From positions 186,001 to 250,000 of the forward strand of contig NZ_VOPL01000004.1 in assembly GCF_007993065.1 (NCBI RefSeq): 64,000 nt of DNA. The letters are read 5' to 3'. The stretch's first letter is position 1. Every line of letters begins with the position of its first letter. The notes below the pieces were generated by a model that worked only from the letters and a program-made list of their open reading frames with translations, had not been told where the DNA came from and searched no databases. This document shows positions 39,316-46,942 of this stretch, piece after piece. Made by a program: the position numbers and the translations under genes. The DNA is from Paracoccus aurantiacus. Its GTDB lineage: Bacteria; Pseudomonadota; Alphaproteobacteria; Rhodobacterales; Rhodobacteraceae.

Positions 39316-40341
39316 TCAGCGTATCTCGATCCCTTCGCCTTCGGTGACTTCGCCGATAATCGCCGCTTTGGGATGGCGCTCACGTATCTGTGCCAGAACC
39401 TGATCCGCCGCTTCGGCTGCGACCGCAACCAGCAGACCGCCGGAGGTCTGCGGATCGGTCAGGATCATCCGCTCTGCGTCGGTGATGTCGTCAGGCAGCG
39501 TGACACGGCCGCCGACCGCGTCCCAGTTGCGCTGGCTGGCGCCTGTGCCGTGACCCGATGCCGCAAGCTCTGCCGCGCGGGCGAGCAGAGGGATAGCGTT
39601 GCGGTTGATATGCAGCGCGCAACCCGCGCCTCTCGCCATTTCCATCCCGTGCCCGAGGATGCCGAAGCCTGTTACATCGGTCAGGGCATGCACTTCGGGC
39701 AGCGCCGACAAATCCTGTCCGATCCGGTTCAGCGTGGTGCAGCTCGTAACCATCTCGGCGATGTCATCCGCCGTCGCCGTGCCTTTCTTGATCGCGTTCG
39801 AATAGATACCGACACCGACAGGCTTGGTCAGGATCAGCTTGTCTGTCGCCTGCGCGCCGCCATTGCGGCGAACGTCCCCTGGCGCACACAGCCCGATCAC
39901 CGCCAGCCCATAGATCGGCTCTGGCGAATCGATCGAGTGTCCGCCGGCAATGGGGATGCCTGCCTCGGCGCAGATATCGGCACCGCCTGACAGAATGTCG
40001 CGAATAACATCGGGTGGCATCTTGTTGATCGGCATTCCAAGGATCGCAAGCGCCATGACCGGCCGGCCACCCATCGCGTAAATGTCGGAGATCGCATTCG
40101 TGGCGGCAATGCGCCCGAAATCGCGCGGGTCATCCACCATCGGCATGAAAAAATCGGTCGTGGCGATCAGACAGGTATTCTCGTCGATCTGCCAGACGGC
40201 GGCATCGTCTGATTCGGCATTGCCGACCAGAAGTTGCGGAAACATCTGCCCCATCGGCTGGTCGGCGAGCAGTTCGCTAAGGACAGCCGGGCCGAGTTTG
40301 CATCCGCAGCCGCCGCCATGTGCCAGTTCGGTCAATCTCAT
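39316..40341 (-). CDS. selD: Selenide, water dikinase
   Basis: SelD makes selenophosphate from selenide and ATP for selenocysteine and selenouridine synthesis. The 341 residues start [18 protein letters not shown], where C12/C14 and K15 form the catalytic loop; the position that is selenocysteine in some species is Cys here. Other motifs are [48 protein letters not shown] and [17 protein letters not shown] 40341 has GGAG 6 nt upstream; the frame continues to 40431 without a good RBS. No selA, selB or selU is present in the window. The gene is divergent from the PPDK-like gene. Confidence 0.95.
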
Positions 40342-40449
40342 TGCAGTCTCCATCATTCGATATGGCGCAACGTTTTCGCTTGCTGCGGGCCGATAATCGA
40401 CATCTCGCACTTGCAGCAAATCCGGCGCCATGCCTTAATCCGCCACATT

Positions 40450-42993
40450 ATGACGCGCATGATAGATCCGAAAGACATCGTTGATATTACGCCCTCTGCC
40501 GGGATCTCGACCGCCATTCATGGCTGGCGGGCGAAATGTCTGCAACGTCTTATCAGGATGGATCTGCCGGTGCCGCGTTCGCACGCGATCTCGGCCGCGG
40601 CAGTCCGGTCGATGGCGCAGGGCGCGATGTTGCCGCAGGGAACGCTTGATGCGCTGTTTTCGAACGGTAATGGGCTTGTCAGTATTCGTCCCTCGGCGGT
40701 GATGCCCGAATGGGGCGGGCCGGGCACGGTCCTCAACGTTGGTATCAACGACGAGCGGCACCGACAGCTTGCAAAGACACGCGGGCAGGATGCGGCAGAC
40801 GCGATCTATCTTGGCTTCGTTCAGTCATATGCGGTGAATGTCGCACGGCTCGACCCCGACATGTTCGCCGATGGCAGCGAGGGGACGCTTGCGCGTGCGC
40901 TCGAAACCTATCGCAACGAGATGGACGAGGATTTCCCGCAGGACCCGGTGCGGCAGCTGACCGAGGTTCTGCGGTCCATGGCCCGCTCCTGGGACGCGCC
41001 GACCGCGCGGCTGCTGCGTCAGGCGAAGGGTGCGCCCGAAGATGCGCCGCTGGGGCTTGTCGTCCAGCAGATGGCGCTGGCGATCGGTCCGGGGATCACG
41101 GGTTCGGGCACGGTGCAGATGATCGACAGTGTCACCGGCGCGCCGATCCTGATGGGGCGCTTCAAGGGACAGATGCAGGGTCGTTCGCGCGGGCAGGGGG
41201 CGGAAACGCTGTATCTGACACGCGACGAGCGTGGGCCATCGCTGGAAGACCTCGCGCCCGACGCCTTCGCGGATCTGGTTCGTTTTTGCGAGGCCGCGCG
41301 GGTCAGGCTGCGTGACGAGATGCAGATCGAATTCGTGATGTCGGATGGCGAGCTTTCGATCCTGGATGCGGTCAGGACTCAGCGCTCGTCACGTGCCGCC
41401 GTGAATATCGCAGTTTCGCTAGCCCGCGACGGCATCATCCCACCCGAGGACGCCGTGATGCGGGTCGAGCCGCGCGCCCTGTCTGAACTGATGCATTACC
41501 AGATCGACCCGCGCGCGCCCCGCGACATCATCGCGCGCGGCATTGATGCAAGCCCGGGCGCGGCAACGGGCAAAATCGTCTTTACGGCCACCGCGGCGCA
41601 AGCCTCGGCCGCACGGGGCGAGCCGTGTATTCTGGTGCGTCGCGAAACCGTGCCAGAGGATATTCGCGGCATGCATGCGGCAGTCGGTGTTCTGACGGAA
41701 CGCGGCGGCATGACCAGCCATGCCGCCGTGATCGCGCGCGGCCTCGGCTTGCCCTGTATTGTCGGCGCGCACGGCATCAGCATTGATCCACGCGCCCGAG
41801 AGTTGCGCAGCGGCGGCCGCAGCTTTCGCGAGGGCGAGGAGATCACGATAGACGGCACATCGGGCGAAGTGCTGGCGGGATCTGCACAATTGCTGGAGCC
41901 GGCACTGGATGACAGCTTTAACCAGTTGCTCGACTGGGCCGACGAATCTCGCGATATGGGTGTGCGCGCGAATGCCGACACGCCCGAGGATGCGCGCACT
42001 GCCCGCATGTTCAAGGCGCAGGGGATCGGACTGTGCCGGACCGAGCACATGTTCTTTGACGAGATGCGCCTGCCGATCATGCGAGAGATGATCTTCGCCA
42101 ACAGTCCCGAAGATCGCCGCGTCGCGCTGGAGCGTTTGCTGCCGATTCAGCGGCAGGACTTTACCGAGCTTTTTGACATCATGGCCGGTATGCCGGTCAC
42201 GATCCGGCTGTTCGATCCGCCTTTGCACGAATTCCTGCCGCAGGACCGCGAAGGAATGCGCGAACTTGCCGAATCGCTGGACCTGCCTTTGTCCGATGTG
42301 ACCCGCCGGATCGAGGCCCTGTCAGAATTCAATCCGATGCTCGGCATGCGGGGCGTTCGGCTTGGCATTACCGTGCCTGAAATTTACGACATGCAGGCAC
42401 GCGCTATTTTCGAGGCCGCGATTGCGACCGCAAATGCGGGAGAGGGGGTCGTGCCAGAGATCATGATCCCGCTGGTCAGTGCCCGGCGTGAGGTCGAAAT
42501 CGTCAAGACCCGCGTCGACGCGGTTGCCGCCGCGCTGCGCAACGAAACCGGGCGCGACTTCACCTATCGTCTCGGCGTCATGGTCGAGACACCGCGCGCT
42601 GCGCTTCGCGCTGGTGACATCGCGCGTCATTCCGCCTTCCTGTCCTTCGGCACCAACGACCTGACACAGATGACCTATGGCCTGTCGCGCGACGATGCGG
42701 GCCGGTTCATGAACAGCTATGTCCAGCAAGGCGTTTATGCCGAAGACCCGTTTCATATCCTTGACGAGGACGGCGTCGGAGAGCTGTTGCTGATCGGCAC
42801 GCAGCGCGCCCGCGAGGCGCAGCCTGAAATCACCATCGCGGTCTGCGGCGAACATGGCGGGAACCCGCAATCCATCGCCTTTTGCCAGCGCGCAGGTCTG
42901 GACTATATCTCCTGCTCTCCGTTTCGGGTTCCGGTTGCTCGGCTTGCTGCAGCGCAGGAATCGATTCGAAGCCGGCGCGAGAAAAACCCCTGA
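40450..42993 (+). CDS. PPDK-like PEP-utilising protein with degenerate ATP-grasp domain
   Basis: This 847-residue homologue of pyruvate phosphate dikinase is intact in two of three domains. The phospho-histidine domain has GGMTSHAAVIARGLGLPC. The PEP/pyruvate barrel has GLCRTEHMFFDE, RLFDPPLHEFLP, NPMLGMRGVR, SFGTNDLTQMTYGLSRDDAG and the catalytic Cys in VCGEHGGNPQSIAFC. The N-terminal ATP-grasp region has lost its signatures. No GGKG loop is seen (GWRAKCL instead). SVRSGA has become SIRPSAVMPEWGG, FTRNPSTGE is absent, and LQTR has become LDAVRT. It probably cannot use ATP as PPDK does. A regulatory or phosphotransfer role is possible. ATG 40450 is used, with a weak RBS; ATG 40459 is an alternative. 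Confidence 0.85.
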   Translation: MTRMIDPKDIVDITPSAGISTAIHGWRAKCLQRLIRMDLPVPRSHAISAAAVRSMAQGAMLPQGTLDALFSNGNGLVSIRPSAVMPEWGGPGTVLNVGINDERHRQLAKTRGQDAADAIYLGFVQSYAVNVARLDPDMFADGSEGTLARALETYRNEMDEDFPQDPVRQLTEVLRSMARSWDAPTARLLRQAKGAPEDAPLGLVVQQMALAIGPGITGSGTVQMIDSVTGAPILMGRFKGQMQGRSRGQGAETLYLTRDERGPSLEDLAPDAFADLVRFCEAARVRLRDEMQIEFVMSDGELSILDAVRTQRSSRAAVNIAVSLARDGIIPPEDAVMRVEPRALSELMHYQIDPRAPRDIIARGIDASPGAATGKIVFTATAAQASAARGEPCILVRRETVPEDIRGMHAAVGVLTERGGMTSHAAVIARGLGLPCIVGAHGISIDPRARELRSGGRSFREGEEITIDGTSGEVLAGSAQLLEPALDDSFNQLLDWADESRDMGVRANADTPEDARTARMFKAQGIGLCRTEHMFFDEMRLPIMREMIFANSPEDRRVALERLLPIQRQDFTELFDIMAGMPVTIRLFDPPLHEFLPQDREGMRELAESLDLPLSDVTRRIEALSEFNPMLGMRGVRLGITVPEIYDMQARAIFEAAIATANAGEGVVPEIMIPLVSARREVEIVKTRVDAVAAALRNETGRDFTYRLGVMVETPRAALRAGDIARHSAFLSFGTNDLTQMTYGLSRDDAGRFMNSYVQQGVYAEDPFHILDEDGVGELLLIGTQRAREAQPEITIAVCGEHGGNPQSIAFCQRAGLDYISCSPFRVPVARLAAAQESIRSRREKNP

Positions 42994-43088: not shown

Positions 43089-43228
43089 GGAAAAATGGTT
43101 AATTCGATGAAAAGCGGAACCTCACAGTCTCGCGCGTGGCGACGGCTGAAAGGCTTTGTGTAGTTTCCCTCTCGACCCACGTCGGCCTCTGCTCGGTCCG
43201 GCGATCCATGAGACAGGAATACTGCTTT

Positions 43229-43732
43229 ATGCTTACGCTGACCCGTAAACTGGCCGCCCTCGTTGTGGCCGCATCGCTCGCACTGCCACTTACGGCGAGC
43301 GCCGACCCGGTTAAAGGCCCCGAGACCGTCACCAAGGTTCGCTATGGCGGCGCGGACTCGCTCGCTTGCCTGACCGAGGCGCTTTACTTCGAGGCACGCG
43401 GCGAAGGGCGCAGCGGTCAGCGCGCCGTGGCAGAAGTCATCCTGAACCGCGTCGACAGCCGCGCGTTCCCGAATTCGGTCTGCGGCGTCGTCCACCAGCG
43501 CGGTCAGTTCACCTATAACAAGGGTCGGCGCATGTCGAATGCCGCCGCCGCCTCGCGCGCCCGTCAGATCGCCGCGGACGCGCTTGCAGGGGCACCTCGC
43601 GAACTGACCAATGGTGCGACTTACTTCCATACGACGCAAGTTCGTCCGTCTTGGTCGAAGCGCTTCACCCGGACGACGAAGATCGGCAGCCACATCTTCT
43701 ATCGTCAGGGTCGTCGCGTCGCCGCGAATTGA
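43229..43732 (+). CDS. Secreted cell wall hydrolase, SleB/CwlJ family
   Basis: This periplasmic peptidoglycan hydrolase belongs to the Hydrolase_2 (SleB) family. The 167 residues have a signal peptide cut near LTASADP (about residue 26). The SleB core follows: CLTEALYFEARGEGRSGQRA with the catalytic glutamate, VAEVILNRVDSRAFPNSVCG, and the distal NGATYFHTTQVRPSWSKRF. The chosen start is ATG 43229; ATG 43208 would add seven residues before the signal peptide. Spore-former relatives act in germination, but here it must serve ordinary wall turnover. The gene is closed by a terminator that abuts folB. Confidence 0.87.
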   Translation: MLTLTRKLAALVVAASLALPLTASADPVKGPETVTKVRYGGADSLACLTEALYFEARGEGRSGQRAVAEVILNRVDSRAFPNSVCGVVHQRGQFTYNKGRRMSNAAAASRARQIAADALAGAPRELTNGATYFHTTQVRPSWSKRFTRTTKIGSHIFYRQGRRVAAN

Positions 43733-43823: not shown

Positions 43824-43839
43824 CTTGGGATTTGGTGGC

Positions 43840-44622
43840 ATGGACGAACCAGACCGAATTCATCTGCGCGATTATCTCGTCGATGCCGAGATTGGCGCGT
43901 TCCAGTCCGAGCGCGGTCAGCGACAGCGCCTGCGGTTCAATCTGAATGTCGATCTGGCAGCGCCGGTCGTCGGGGCGGGCGACGACGTGGACCGCATTCT
44001 ATCCTACGACGTGCTGACAGAGGCCGTGGCTGCCGGACTTGCCGATCAGCGCTTCAACCTGCTGGAAACGCTTGCGGAAAGGATCGCTGCCGAGGTGCTT
44101 TCGCATCCGCGCGCGGCCCGCATCAGCGTCACGGTCGAAAAACTTGACCGCGTGCCGGGCGCACTGGGTGTGACGCTTGTGCGCCGGCGCGGTCGCGTTG
44201 ACGCCGGGGGCGCAGTCCTGTCGCCGGTGGTTCTGTTTCACGGGGCAGAGATTGCACGCCCGGAAGGCGCGGTCATTCTGGTCCCTGATGCGCCCGGACT
44301 GCCAGTGCCTGCTGGTGGGAACGAACGGCGCATGGCGCTTTTGGCACTGGATCAGGCGGCGTGGGCGCTTGGCGGGCGTCTTGGCCTTGATATCGCGGAC
44401 AGCCGCACGGAACTCGACTGGGCGGTGAAAGAGGCGCGCCCCATCGTCTGGGCCCCTGCGAGGATGTGCGCGGATGTCGCGGGGCTTGAAGCCACGCCGA
44501 TCGCGCTTGCCGTCTGGCTGGCCGAACGGATTGGCGCGCAGCGGCTCGACCTCGCGCTTCCGCGCGGTGCCGAAATGCCCGCGACCGACAGCGGTATCCC
44601 TCTTCATCGGATCACCGGATGA
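43840..44622 (+). CDS. folB: Dihydroneopterin aldolase FolB with long C-terminal extension
   Basis: FolB splits dihydroneopterin to hydroxymethyl-dihydropterin in folate synthesis. Residues 1-120 match the family: RIHLRDYLVDAEIGAFQSER, LSYDVLTEAVAAGLADQRFN, LLETLAERIAAEVL and VTVEKLDRVPGALGVTL with the catalytic lysine. Usual FolB is about 120 residues; this one has 260. The extra 140 (starting near VLSPVVLFHG and holding ERRMALLALDQAAWALGGRL and [13 protein letters not shown]) match nothing I recognise. ATG 43840 is preceded by a GGTGG stretch; a TTG at 43825 is less likely. It overlaps folP by 4 nt. Confidence 0.85.
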   Translation: MDEPDRIHLRDYLVDAEIGAFQSERGQRQRLRFNLNVDLAAPVVGAGDDVDRILSYDVLTEAVAAGLADQRFNLLETLAERIAAEVLSHPRAARISVTVEKLDRVPGALGVTLVRRRGRVDAGGAVLSPVVLFHGAEIARPEGAVILVPDAPGLPVPAGGNERRMALLALDQAAWALGGRLGLDIADSRTELDWAVKEARPIVWAPARMCADVAGLEATPIALAVWLAERIGAQRLDLALPRGAEMPATDSGIPLHRITG

Positions 44623-45602
44623 GCGGCCCCTATTGGCGCGCGATCCCCGAGGAGGGCGGCGAAATGCCGCTGGCAGGGGGCTGGCTGCAATTCTCGCGGC
44701 TGGAACGGCTGGAACGTGGTCGGGCACCCAAGATTGTTCCTGCGGAAGATGCGCCCGACCCTATCATCGCAGCCCTGACCGGTCCGCGCGCGGCGATAGC
44801 AGGCATCGACATGGCGCGACCGTCGCTTATGGGCATCGTGAATGTCACGCCCGACAGCTTCTCGGACGGAGGGCTTTACGAGGGCGTCGCGCAGGCCGAA
44901 CGGCTGCACTTGGACGGCGCGCATATCCTCGATATCGGCGGCGAATCCACCCGGCCCGGCGCTGCGGAGGTTTCGGAATCCGAGGAAGTCGCGCGCGTGG
45001 TGCCGGTGATCGAAGCGCTTGCGGGCAAAGCCATCATGTCCGTCGATACACGCAAGTCGGCCGTCGCGCGTGCCGCGATCAAGGCTGGCGCGGGGCTGGT
45101 CAACGATGTTTCGGGGTTCGATTTCGACGCGGAACTCGCCGGCGTTGTAGCAGAAAGCGGGCTTCCTGTATGCCTGATGCACGCGCAGGGCGTTCCTGAG
45201 ACGATGCAGGACAATCCCGAATATGACGATGTGCTGCTGGATGTTTACGACGCGCTGGAATTTCGCATCGCACGGGCAGAAGCGGCAGGGATAAGGCGCG
45301 ACGCGATCCTGATTGATCCGGGCATCGGCTTTGGCAAGACGACCGCGCATAATCTCGCGATTTTGCGCAGGATCAGCTTGTTCCATACGCTCGGTTGTCC
45401 GATCCTGCTGGGGCTGTCGCGAAAGCGGTTCATCGGCGAGATTGCGGGTGTGAAAGATCCGTTGGAACGCGGACCCGGCACGTTGGCGCTGACGCTGGCG
45501 GCAGTCGGGCAGGGGGTGCAGATGCACCGGGTACATGATGTGGCAACCGCCGCGCAGGGATTGGCGTTGTGGGGGCGAGTGACCGAAGGGACAAATACAT
45601 GA
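44619..45602 (+). CDS. folP: Dihydropteroate synthase
   Basis: FolP joins hydroxymethyl-dihydropterin diphosphate to p-aminobenzoate; it is the sulfonamide target. The 327 residues show an N-terminal extension of about 65 residues, then the TIM-barrel signatures [70 protein letters not shown], and the closing [15 protein letters not shown]. It overlaps folB upstream and glmM downstream (ATGA), giving a coupled folB-folP-glmM operon; folP-glmM is a common bacterial pairing. Confidence 0.97.
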
Positions 45603-46942
45603 CGCGCAAGCTGTTCGGGACGGACGGGGTTCGGGGCCGGGCCAACACGGACCCGATGACCGCTGAAATGGCGCTGCGCCTTGGCGCGGCGGCCGGTCGC
45701 TATTTCCGCCGGGACGGTCGCAACGGGCATCGCGTGGTGATCGGCAAGGATACGCGGCTGTCGGGCTATATGCTGGAAAATGCGCTTACCGCTGGCCTGA
45801 CCAGCACTGGGATGAACGTGCTTCTGCTCGGGCCTGTGCCCACACCGGCGGTCGGCTATCTGACGCGCTCGATGCGTGCCGATCTGGGGATCATGATCTC
45901 GGCCAGTCACAACCCCGCCGATGATAACGGGATCAAGTTCTTCGGTCCCGACGGATTCAAGCTGTCCGATGACGCCGAGGCCGAGATTGAGCGGATCGTC
46001 GCAGGTCAGATCCGCCCGGCAGAGCCTGCAAATATCGGGCGGGCGCGCCGGATCGACGACGGGCGCGGGCGCTATGTCGAATATGCGAAAACGACCTTTC
46101 CCGCCGGGCAACGGCTGGACGGAATGAAGGTGGTTATCGACTGTGCCAATGGGGCGGCATATCGCGCCGCGCCAGACGTGCTGTACGAACTTGGCGCCGA
46201 TGTCGTGCGCATCGGTGTTGATCCTGACGGCCGCAATATCAATGACGGCGTCGGCTCGACCCATCCGGGTGCTGCGGCGCAGGCGGTGCTGGACAATCGC
46301 GCTGACCTTGGCATCTGCCTTGACGGTGACGCCGATCGCGTGATCCTGATCGACGAGAAGGGGCGCGTTGCCGATGGCGATCAGCTGATGGCGCTGCTGG
46401 CCGGACGGTGGGCGGAACAGGGGCGTCTGGCAGGTGGCGCGCTTGTCGCGACCGTGATGTCCAATCTGGGGCTGGAGCGTTTCATGACGGATCGCGGCCT
46501 GCGGCTGGAACGCACAAAGGTCGGCGATCGCTACGTTGTAGAACGCATGCGCGAGGGCGGCTTCAATCTGGGCGGCGAGCAGTCGGGGCATCTTGTGATG
46601 ACTGACTATGCCACCACGGGGGACGGCCTGATCGCCGGGCTGCAATTCCTTGCCGCAATGTCGGAAACCGGTCAAAGCGCGTCAGAGCTTGTTCATCAGT
46701 TCGAACCGGTGCCGCAACTGCTGAAGAATGTGCGTTATGCCGCCGGGGCCGATCCGCTTGCCGTCGGTGCCGTCCAGCAGGCGATCACGGCAGGAGAGAC
46801 GCGCCTTAACGGCACCGGTCGGGTTTTGATCCGCAAATCAGGGACCGAGCCGCTGATCCGTGTCATGGCCGAGGCCGAGGACGAAGTTGTTCTGCGCGAG
46901 GTCGTGGACAGCATTGTCGAGGCGGTCGAGGACGCGGTCTAG
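45599..46942 (+). CDS. glmM: Phosphoglucosamine mutase
   Basis: GlmM converts glucosamine-6-phosphate to glucosamine-1-phosphate for peptidoglycan and LPS. The 447 residues have [20 protein letters not shown], the phosphoserine loop [18 protein letters not shown] (S103), the metal loop [32 protein letters not shown] and [17 protein letters not shown] 45599 lies in the folP stop. Its TAG stop shares the palindrome CTAG with the convergent monooxygenase stop. Confidence 0.97.

Follow-up and report, generated by a model that had tools for sequence, protein, structure and literature searches.

Loss of the ATP site in the pyruvate phosphate dikinase orthologue of Rhodobacteraceae

A stretch of 64,000 nucleotides from the genome of Paracoccus aurantiacus (contig NZ_VOPL01000004.1, positions 186,001 to 250,000; hereafter, the window) contains a gene whose product is homologous to the structurally solved pyruvate phosphate dikinases (PPDKs). 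The open reading frame lies on the plus strand, opens with a start codon at position 40450 and encodes 847 residues; the nearest named relatives of the protein are Paracoccus proteins. A preliminary description, made from the sequence alone, saw in it a PPDK-like protein with intact phosphoenolpyruvate (PEP) and phosphohistidine domains and a ruined nucleotide domain. The features of the locus are listed in Table 1.

Table 1. Features of the PPDK-like gene and its neighbours in the window
Feature	Position in the window	Strand	Remarks
PPDK-like gene, 847 aa	40450..42993	+	Open reading frame and profile searches; altered nucleotide domain; ppdK orthologue by locus in most relatives
N-terminal domain, residues 1-350	40450..41499	+	Homologue of the PPDK ATP-grasp domain without most ATP-site residues
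HGWRAKCLQRL, residues 24-34	40519..40551	+	Replaces LGGKGANLAEM; K22 -> R27
Residues 80-93, comprising R80 (= R92, kept) through the new P.WGGPGT segment	40687..40728	+
R237	41158..41160	+	Stands in place of canonical E271 on the presumed docking face for the His domain; Arg in 73/74 close relatives
EMQIEF...LD, residues 290-306	41317..41367	+	D321 -> Q292, E323 = E294 kept, Q335 -> D306
Swivelling phospho-His domain, residues 356-480	41515..41889	+
Catalytic His424 (= H455)	41719..41721	+	Invariant in 94/94 full-length altered sequences
PEP/pyruvate-binding barrel, residues 488-838	41911..42963	+	Every catalytic residue tested is present
selD-like gene (AIR synthase family)	39316..40431	-	Divergent neighbour, outside the conserved locus
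Cell wall hydrolase (PF07486)	43136..43732	+	Conserved downstream neighbour
folB, folP, glmM	43825..46942	+	Downstream block conserved in most loci

The altered nucleotide domain

In Pfam searches, the window protein scores 245 bits with PF02896 and 87 bits with PF00391. The score with the nucleotide domain profile PPDK_N (PF01326) is 15.8 bits, below the cut-off of 27, and the GGKG, FTRNP, GEDVV, and LQTR segments are missing, as the preliminary description had noted. With TIGR01828, the NCBIfam equivalog model of PPDK, the protein reaches 825.5 bits at a cut-off of 843.45. Three of the five altered relatives scanned exceed this cut-off (854 for L213, from a strain of Ruegeria pomeroyi, 876 for L115, and 910 for L119), and two fall below it (840 for L146 and 765 for L127). 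Annotation within Rhodobacteraceae is therefore likely inconsistent; in the source records the names used range from 'putative PEP-binding protein' to 'pyruvate, phosphate dikinase'. The window protein stays far below the cut-offs of the PEP synthase model TIGR01418 (145 bits, cut-off 739.75) and of the Enzyme I model TIGR01417 (120 bits, cut-off 341.7, local matches only).

The preliminary description had also asked whether a canonical ppdK exists elsewhere in the genome. No match to PPDK_N was found at E <=0.001 in the source assembly (3.79 Mb in 42 contigs, 99.95% complete), and thus apparently neither a canonical PPDK nor a PEP synthase is encoded there; a separately encoded ATP-grasp partner was rejected on the same ground. 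An ATP-type PEP carboxykinase is present, so that a route to PEP remains.

For the comparison of residues, 140 extracted sequences were reduced to 114 by dropping those that shared their last 300 residues, and then to 108 by dropping those shorter than 780 residues. This set comprises 74 close relatives (the window protein and those sharing at least 60% identity with it), 20 divergent altered sequences, and 14 canonical alphaproteobacterial PPDKs, one of them from Rhodobacteraceae. The 94 full-length altered sequences, close and divergent together, include many from Paracoccus. Canonical positions are numbered as in the C. symbiosum PPDK, with the correspondence checked against the chains 1dik, 2dik, and 2r82.

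The two C-terminal domains are complete. Thirteen residues (His455, R561, E563, R617, D621, H626, E745, R749, N768, D769, C831, E833, and H834; the regulatory Thr is not counted) are invariant in 94/94 altered sequences and are all retained in the window protein, so the preliminary description was right on this point. The features expected of a PPDK in these domains, the catalytic residues of the PEP/pyruvate barrel and the phosphorylatable His455 within GGMTSHAAV, are likewise present in all 94.

The ATP site is different. K22, R92, E279, D280, D321, E323, Q335, and R337 are taken as the ATP-binding residues of PPDK. Only two of these eight are retained in the window protein, R92 (as R80) and E323 (as E294), and the others are substituted (K22 by R27, D321 by Q292, Q335 by D306, R337 by V308, and E279/D280 by R245/S246). 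The substitutions are largely shared: K22 is replaced by R, G23 by A, and Q335 by D in each of the 74 close relatives; position 321 is Q in 66 and D in none of them, and position 337 is R in none of the 72 in which the residue could be read. D280 is still D in 29/74. The 20 divergent sequences are less uniform, with K at position 22 in seven, R92 retained in 19, E323 in 11, and D in place of Q335 in 15. Conservation of the ATP contacts at shifted positions, which the preliminary description named as a possible objection, was rejected by alignment: MAFFT, HHalign, and HMMER all pair R27 with K22 and D306 with Q335.

Named loci in the database give the same division. Among the best 80 of at least 592 such loci, 52 PPDK loci from outside Rhodobacteraceae, bacterial and archaeal, hold ten of ten ATP-site residues in 50 cases, whereas the 27 loci of Rhodobacteraceae type (Ruegeria pomeroyi and Rhodobacter ruber included; two are titled only 'Proteobacteria bacterium') hold one to four of ten. 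The two exceptions among the 52 are a fragment (L262), in which all four covered residues are present, and the locus of Aureimonas jatrophae with five of ten; the remaining named locus (L253, Pseudorhodobacter) covers the C-terminal part only. The Aureimonas protein (L270, NZ_FNIT01000003.1), which lies outside the family, has G21, E279, D280, D321, and E323 changed and K22, R92, Q335, and R337 kept. No glyS was found in the fetched flanks of this locus, and the PPDK it encodes may be a second copy.

The presumed docking face for the His domain has changed too. R219 and E271 are each present in 14/14 canonical PPDKs; in the close relatives, position 219 is T or S in 74/74 and position 271 is R in 73/74, and R also occupies position 271 in 13 of the 20 divergent sequences. 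The chain 2r82, an engineered mutant, differs from 1dik by R219E, S262D, and E271R. As reported by Lim et al. (2007), these three changes displace the His domain from the nucleotide domain, so that the PEP half-reaction persists and the overall reaction is lost. The close relatives thus carry one of the three (E271R) naturally, and a second residue, R219, is lost in them.

The 'ruined' or decayed state of the nucleotide domain, as the preliminary description put it, is too strong a term for the close relatives. The ATP-site residues are mostly lost, and in some divergent genera the domain does look eroded. On the other hand, homology to PPDK_N is nearly full-length (HHalign probability 100 over 329 columns; E=3.4e-55 with a solved PPDK), so that the domain has not been swapped for another one, and it has invariant motifs of its own. 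Among the 74 close relatives, 65 N-domain positions are invariant. New residues found in all 74, numbered as in the window protein, are H24, R27, A28, K29, C30, S82, G90, P91, and D306, and R237 is found in 73. On average, close relatives retain 40% of the canonical invariant columns in the N-domain, against averages of 90% for the His domain and 95% for the PEP domain. Defining a fixed column as one conserved in at least 13/14 canonical and 73/74 close sequences, we observed a switch to a different residue in 28/64 columns of the N-domain, 1/37 of the His domain, and 2/123 of the PEP domain (28/64 vs. 3/160; Fisher p about 8e-15). Sixteen of the 28 switched columns lie within eight residues of 13 chosen ATP-site positions, as do 90 of 350 positions overall (p 0.0002, with the eight-residue distance set post hoc); plainly invariant columns are weakly enriched at 11 ATP positions (p 0.035).

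The ratio of nonsynonymous to synonymous substitution rates (dN/dS) among Paracoccus sequences is about 0.30 for the N-domain, 0.22 for the His domain, and 0.17 for the PEP domain; the estimates, from 373 pairs with dS under 1.2, are approximate, as dS is near 1 and synonymous sites are near saturation. With new residues fixed and dN/dS in Paracoccus at about 0.3, the N-domain of the close relatives has been re-specified and not left to decay. A recent pseudogene was considered and rejected: the gene is open in nearly all genomes listed, and dN/dS is low.

Genomic context, spread, and origin

The recurrent gene order in 41 Rhodobacteraceae loci is glyQ - DUF6446 - glyS - PPDK-like gene - cell wall hydrolase - folB - folP - glmM, with glyS present in 36, the hydrolase in 40, folB in 32, folP in 30, and glmM in 32 of them. 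In other alphaproteobacterial families, 10 of 11 loci have canonical PPDK downstream of glyQ-glyS, and the same is true of G114, the one sampled Rhodobacteraceae genome with a canonical PPDK. As the glyQ-glyS locus is common to the altered gene and to canonical PPDK, the altered gene is the positional orthologue of ppdK, that is, a true ppdK changed in place.

In the window itself, the upstream glyQ-glyS genes are missing and selD occupies their position, as in one other Paracoccus locus (L173). The preliminary description had named the divergent pairing with selD as a second oddity. A partnership with selD was rejected, since selD adjoins the gene in only 2/41 family loci within the fetched stretch; the adjacency is incidental, a local rearrangement without evident meaning.

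The altered N-domain is not peculiar to P. aurantiacus; it is found family-wide. With the window protein as a query, homologues at E <=1e-150 were found in 236 of the 248 sampled Rhodobacteraceae genomes. One of these, in G114, is the canonical PPDK, and the altered form is thus present in 235/248, mostly as judged by score and, in the 94 full-length sequences, by inspection of residues. Canonical PPDKs of the other families sampled reach at best 5e-214 with this query, and most Rhodobacteraceae matches are far stronger. Of the weaker family matches, 26 were inspected, a few of them only as fragments; in G068 the N-domain was not visible, and matches at 1e-284 to 1e-300 in G089, G207, and G261 were counted by score only. 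All 37 sampled genomes of the source genus, the source included, contain the gene, with the copy in G031 lying in overlapping pieces. Internal stops or frame breaks were seen in a few genomes (G031, G270, G061, and G222).

Twelve Rhodobacteraceae genomes have no match, eight of them being less than 90% complete. In two nearly complete genomes (G154 and G187; loci L275 and L276), glyS directly adjoins the cell wall hydrolase, and the PPDK-like gene has been cleanly deleted. Neither the gene nor glyS was matched in G162 and G191, where the absence may be an assembly gap.

In a sample of 190 alphaproteobacterial genomes, all 139 genomes outside Rhodobacteraceae with a PPDK match (E <=1e-100) also have a PPDK_N match somewhere in the genome, whereas the three family members in this sample do not. 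The phylogenetic trees allow a single origin of the altered form. A quick tree was built from 40 thinned rows, keeping the branch of G114 and omitting the other four of the five longest. In it, a branch with a support of only 32 sets all 28 altered rows apart; together with G114 the support is 98.9. In a tree of 51 rows that includes the long ones, the altered rows and G114 are joined at 99, and G114 falls among the altered rows. G114 (loci L103 and L181) retains both PDRP and, at the glyQ-glyS locus, the canonical PPDK; owing to its long branch, its placement is uncertain.

The loss of the ATP site is accompanied by loss of the regulator. PDRP (PF03618) is the PPDK regulator that modifies the Thr beside the catalytic His. 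Outside Rhodobacteraceae it is present in 113/139 PPDK-bearing alphaproteobacterial genomes and in 4/48 without PPDK, and within the family in only 9/248, namely, in G114 and in 8/235 genomes with the altered form. These eight represent eight genera (G061, G064, G075, G117, G134, G161, G222, and G271); seven of their altered proteins were placed in the tree, and all seven lie outside the close-relative group. Six of the eight genomes (G061, G064, G117, G161, G222, and G271) have no PPDK_N match, G075 has a short weak match elsewhere, and G134 has a match resembling PEP synthase by its length. Most of these genomes thus have no evident PDRP target apart from the altered protein, a hint that phosphorylation of its His continues in them.

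Possible function and rival explanations

Taken together, these sequence comparisons make it somewhat probable that an ancestral ppdK of Rhodobacteraceae, changing in place, lost the nucleotide half of its reaction, and that its product has since been retained not as a PPDK but as a phosphohistidine protein driven by PEP. Given the complete conservation of the PEP half-site, PEP would phosphorylate His424 with the release of pyruvate. With most ATP contacts and the docking charges R219 and E271 gone, the His domain would no longer hand its phosphate on to a nucleotide. The re-specified N-domain may have acquired another ligand or partner, and the phosphate would reach an acceptor other than AMP or pyrophosphate (PPi), either a protein or a small molecule. 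Two points are inferred: that the His is phosphorylated in vivo, and that an acceptor of this kind exists. The preliminary description had suggested that the histidine accepts phosphate from PEP and passes it to something other than ATP; a protein that takes phosphate from PEP and passes none to AMP or PPi is the best reading, given the invariant His/PEP site, ATP contacts that have not shifted, and no other PPDK_N. A broader formulation, for which the chances seem evenly balanced, is that in the ancestor of most Rhodobacteraceae a gluconeogenic PPDK became, in place, a phosphohistidine switch that is powered by PEP, needs no ATP, and has a rebuilt ligand pocket. It would be a core PEP-driven phosphotransfer or signalling protein of roseobacters and Paracoccus, distinct from the phosphotransferase system (PTS).

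Several observations weigh against this proposal. An acceptor was not found: no new partner gene is visible near the altered gene in the 41 family loci, and its glyQ-glyS neighbourhood is the one common to canonical ppdK. HPr is encoded in 8/8 genomes tested, and these include the two that have lost the PPDK-like gene; HPr is thus uninformative as a candidate for a specific acceptor. Since G154 and G187, from two genera, have deleted the gene cleanly, it is not indispensable. The N-domain evolves faster than the other two domains, and in some divergent genera (L123, L126, L127, and L130) it is so strongly eroded that loss fits better there than re-specification. Among the presumed ATP-binding residues, R92 is retained in 74/74 and E323 in 73/74 close relatives; of the docking residues, R219 persists in 3/20 and E271 in 1/20 divergent sequences.

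Published fluxes are counted in favour of the proposal. According to Fürch et al. (2009; PMC2761930), formation of PEP from pyruvate was 0 in Dinoroseobacter shibae and Phaeobacter gallaeciensis despite an annotated ppdK, a gene for which a place in a CO2-assimilation route of roseobacters had been proposed. The same 13C data (PMC2761930) also count against the proposal in that labelled glucose was used, a condition under which little flux from pyruvate to PEP is expected anyway. In Tang et al. (2009; PMC2749216), the pyruvate-to-PEP flux of Roseobacter denitrificans is weak and ppdK expression is low. The name ppdK is also carried by SPO1359 of R. pomeroyi DSS-3 (PMC4334477); we observed the altered form in another R. 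pomeroyi strain (L213). Among the matches listed from the open-licence PMC literature, no description of ATP-site loss in a Rhodobacteraceae PPDK was found.

A possible, though rather doubtful, alternative is a pseudoenzyme sensor, in which binding of PEP or pyruvate and phosphorylation of His would signal the ratio of PEP to pyruvate to a partner, by way of the N-domain, with no net phosphate transfer to an acceptor. The loss of R219 and E271, while the His domain has hardly changed (a single switched column), agrees with a His domain that has ceased to dock there, and outright gene loss, as in G154 and G187, is compatible with such a role. However, a sensor need not keep all 13 catalytic residues of the PEP half, which are invariant over 94 sequences, and no gene for a new partner is visible nearby. 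Continued pyruvate phosphate dikinase activity, with ATP bound through substituted residues, is very unlikely. This would agree with retention of R92 and E323, replacement of K22 by another basic residue, and the TIGR01828 scores of some members (854 vs. 843 bits in the R. pomeroyi strain), but the window protein has D321, Q335, R337, E279, D280, R219, and E271 all replaced, 50 of the 52 named loci outside the family, archaeal ones included, hold the complete set of ATP-site residues, PDRP has been lost from most of the family, and the 13C work found no PEP formed from pyruvate (PMC2761930).

Even less probable is a relic in slow decay, retained by chance or for residual stability. Identity among the 20 divergent members is 0.32 for the N-domain, compared with 0.56 for the His domain and 0.64 for the PEP domain, and the two clean deletions and the stops or frame breaks flagged in four genomes point in the same direction. 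Such decay is difficult to reconcile with the presence of the altered form, judged mostly by score, in 235/248 genomes, with a reading frame that is open in nearly all listed cases, with dN/dS far below 1, with the 65 invariant N-domain positions, and with an untouched PEP site. Finally, a nucleotide-free enzyme that hydrolyses PEP or uses PEP plus phosphate, yielding pyruvate and phosphate or PPi, would agree with a complete PEP half-site and no canonical nucleotide site. Nothing specific speaks against it, but the reaction is energetically wasteful and would leave the constraint on the N-domain unexplained; we regard it as improbable, much like continued dikinase activity.

If the altered protein cannot use ATP, metabolic maps that show a roseobacter 'ppdK' are in error for most Rhodobacteraceae, and the absence of flux in the 2009 study has a straightforward explanation. 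Roseobacters make up 10-25% of the marine bacterial community (PMC2749216). The proposed PEP-driven phosphohistidine protein, if real, would be a natural counterpart of the engineered uncoupling of the His and nucleotide domains, maintained in over 200 of the genera sampled, and would point to a new PEP-dependent function hidden under the name ppdK.

Comparison with known systems

With PPDK (EC 2.7.9.1; C. symbiosum 1kbl/1dik) the altered protein shares homology over three domains, complete His and PEP sites, and the common alphaproteobacterial locus. It differs in that most ATP-site and N-domain docking residues are replaced, the window protein has no PPDK_N match above the cut-off, and the PDRP regulator is lost in most of Rhodobacteraceae. 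The engineered C. symbiosum PPDK 2r82 (R219E/E271R/S262D) resembles it in having Arg at position 271 and no R219. In that mutant the ATP site is otherwise unchanged, whereas in Rhodobacteraceae the replacement arose naturally, extends across the family, and goes together with a lost ATP site.

Enzyme I of the PTS and EI-Ntr combine PEP, a swivelling phospho-His domain, and a non-nucleotide acceptor. Similarity to them is local, confined to the His and PEP parts, and the N-domain of the altered protein is of PPDK descent. The source genome contains a separate 757-aa frame with weak matches (G000:C34:321833-323545), a candidate EI-Ntr.

Another comparison is provided by the two-component dikinase HpeHI and by rifampin phosphotransferase, which share with the altered protein a swivelling His domain and a substrate domain (PMC12167813). 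HpeH without its ATP-grasp partner moves phosphate between acceptors (PMC12167813). HpeHI and rifampin phosphotransferase keep the ATP-grasp part and have no PEP barrel; the altered protein of Rhodobacteraceae is the reverse, with the PEP barrel kept and the ATP part changed.

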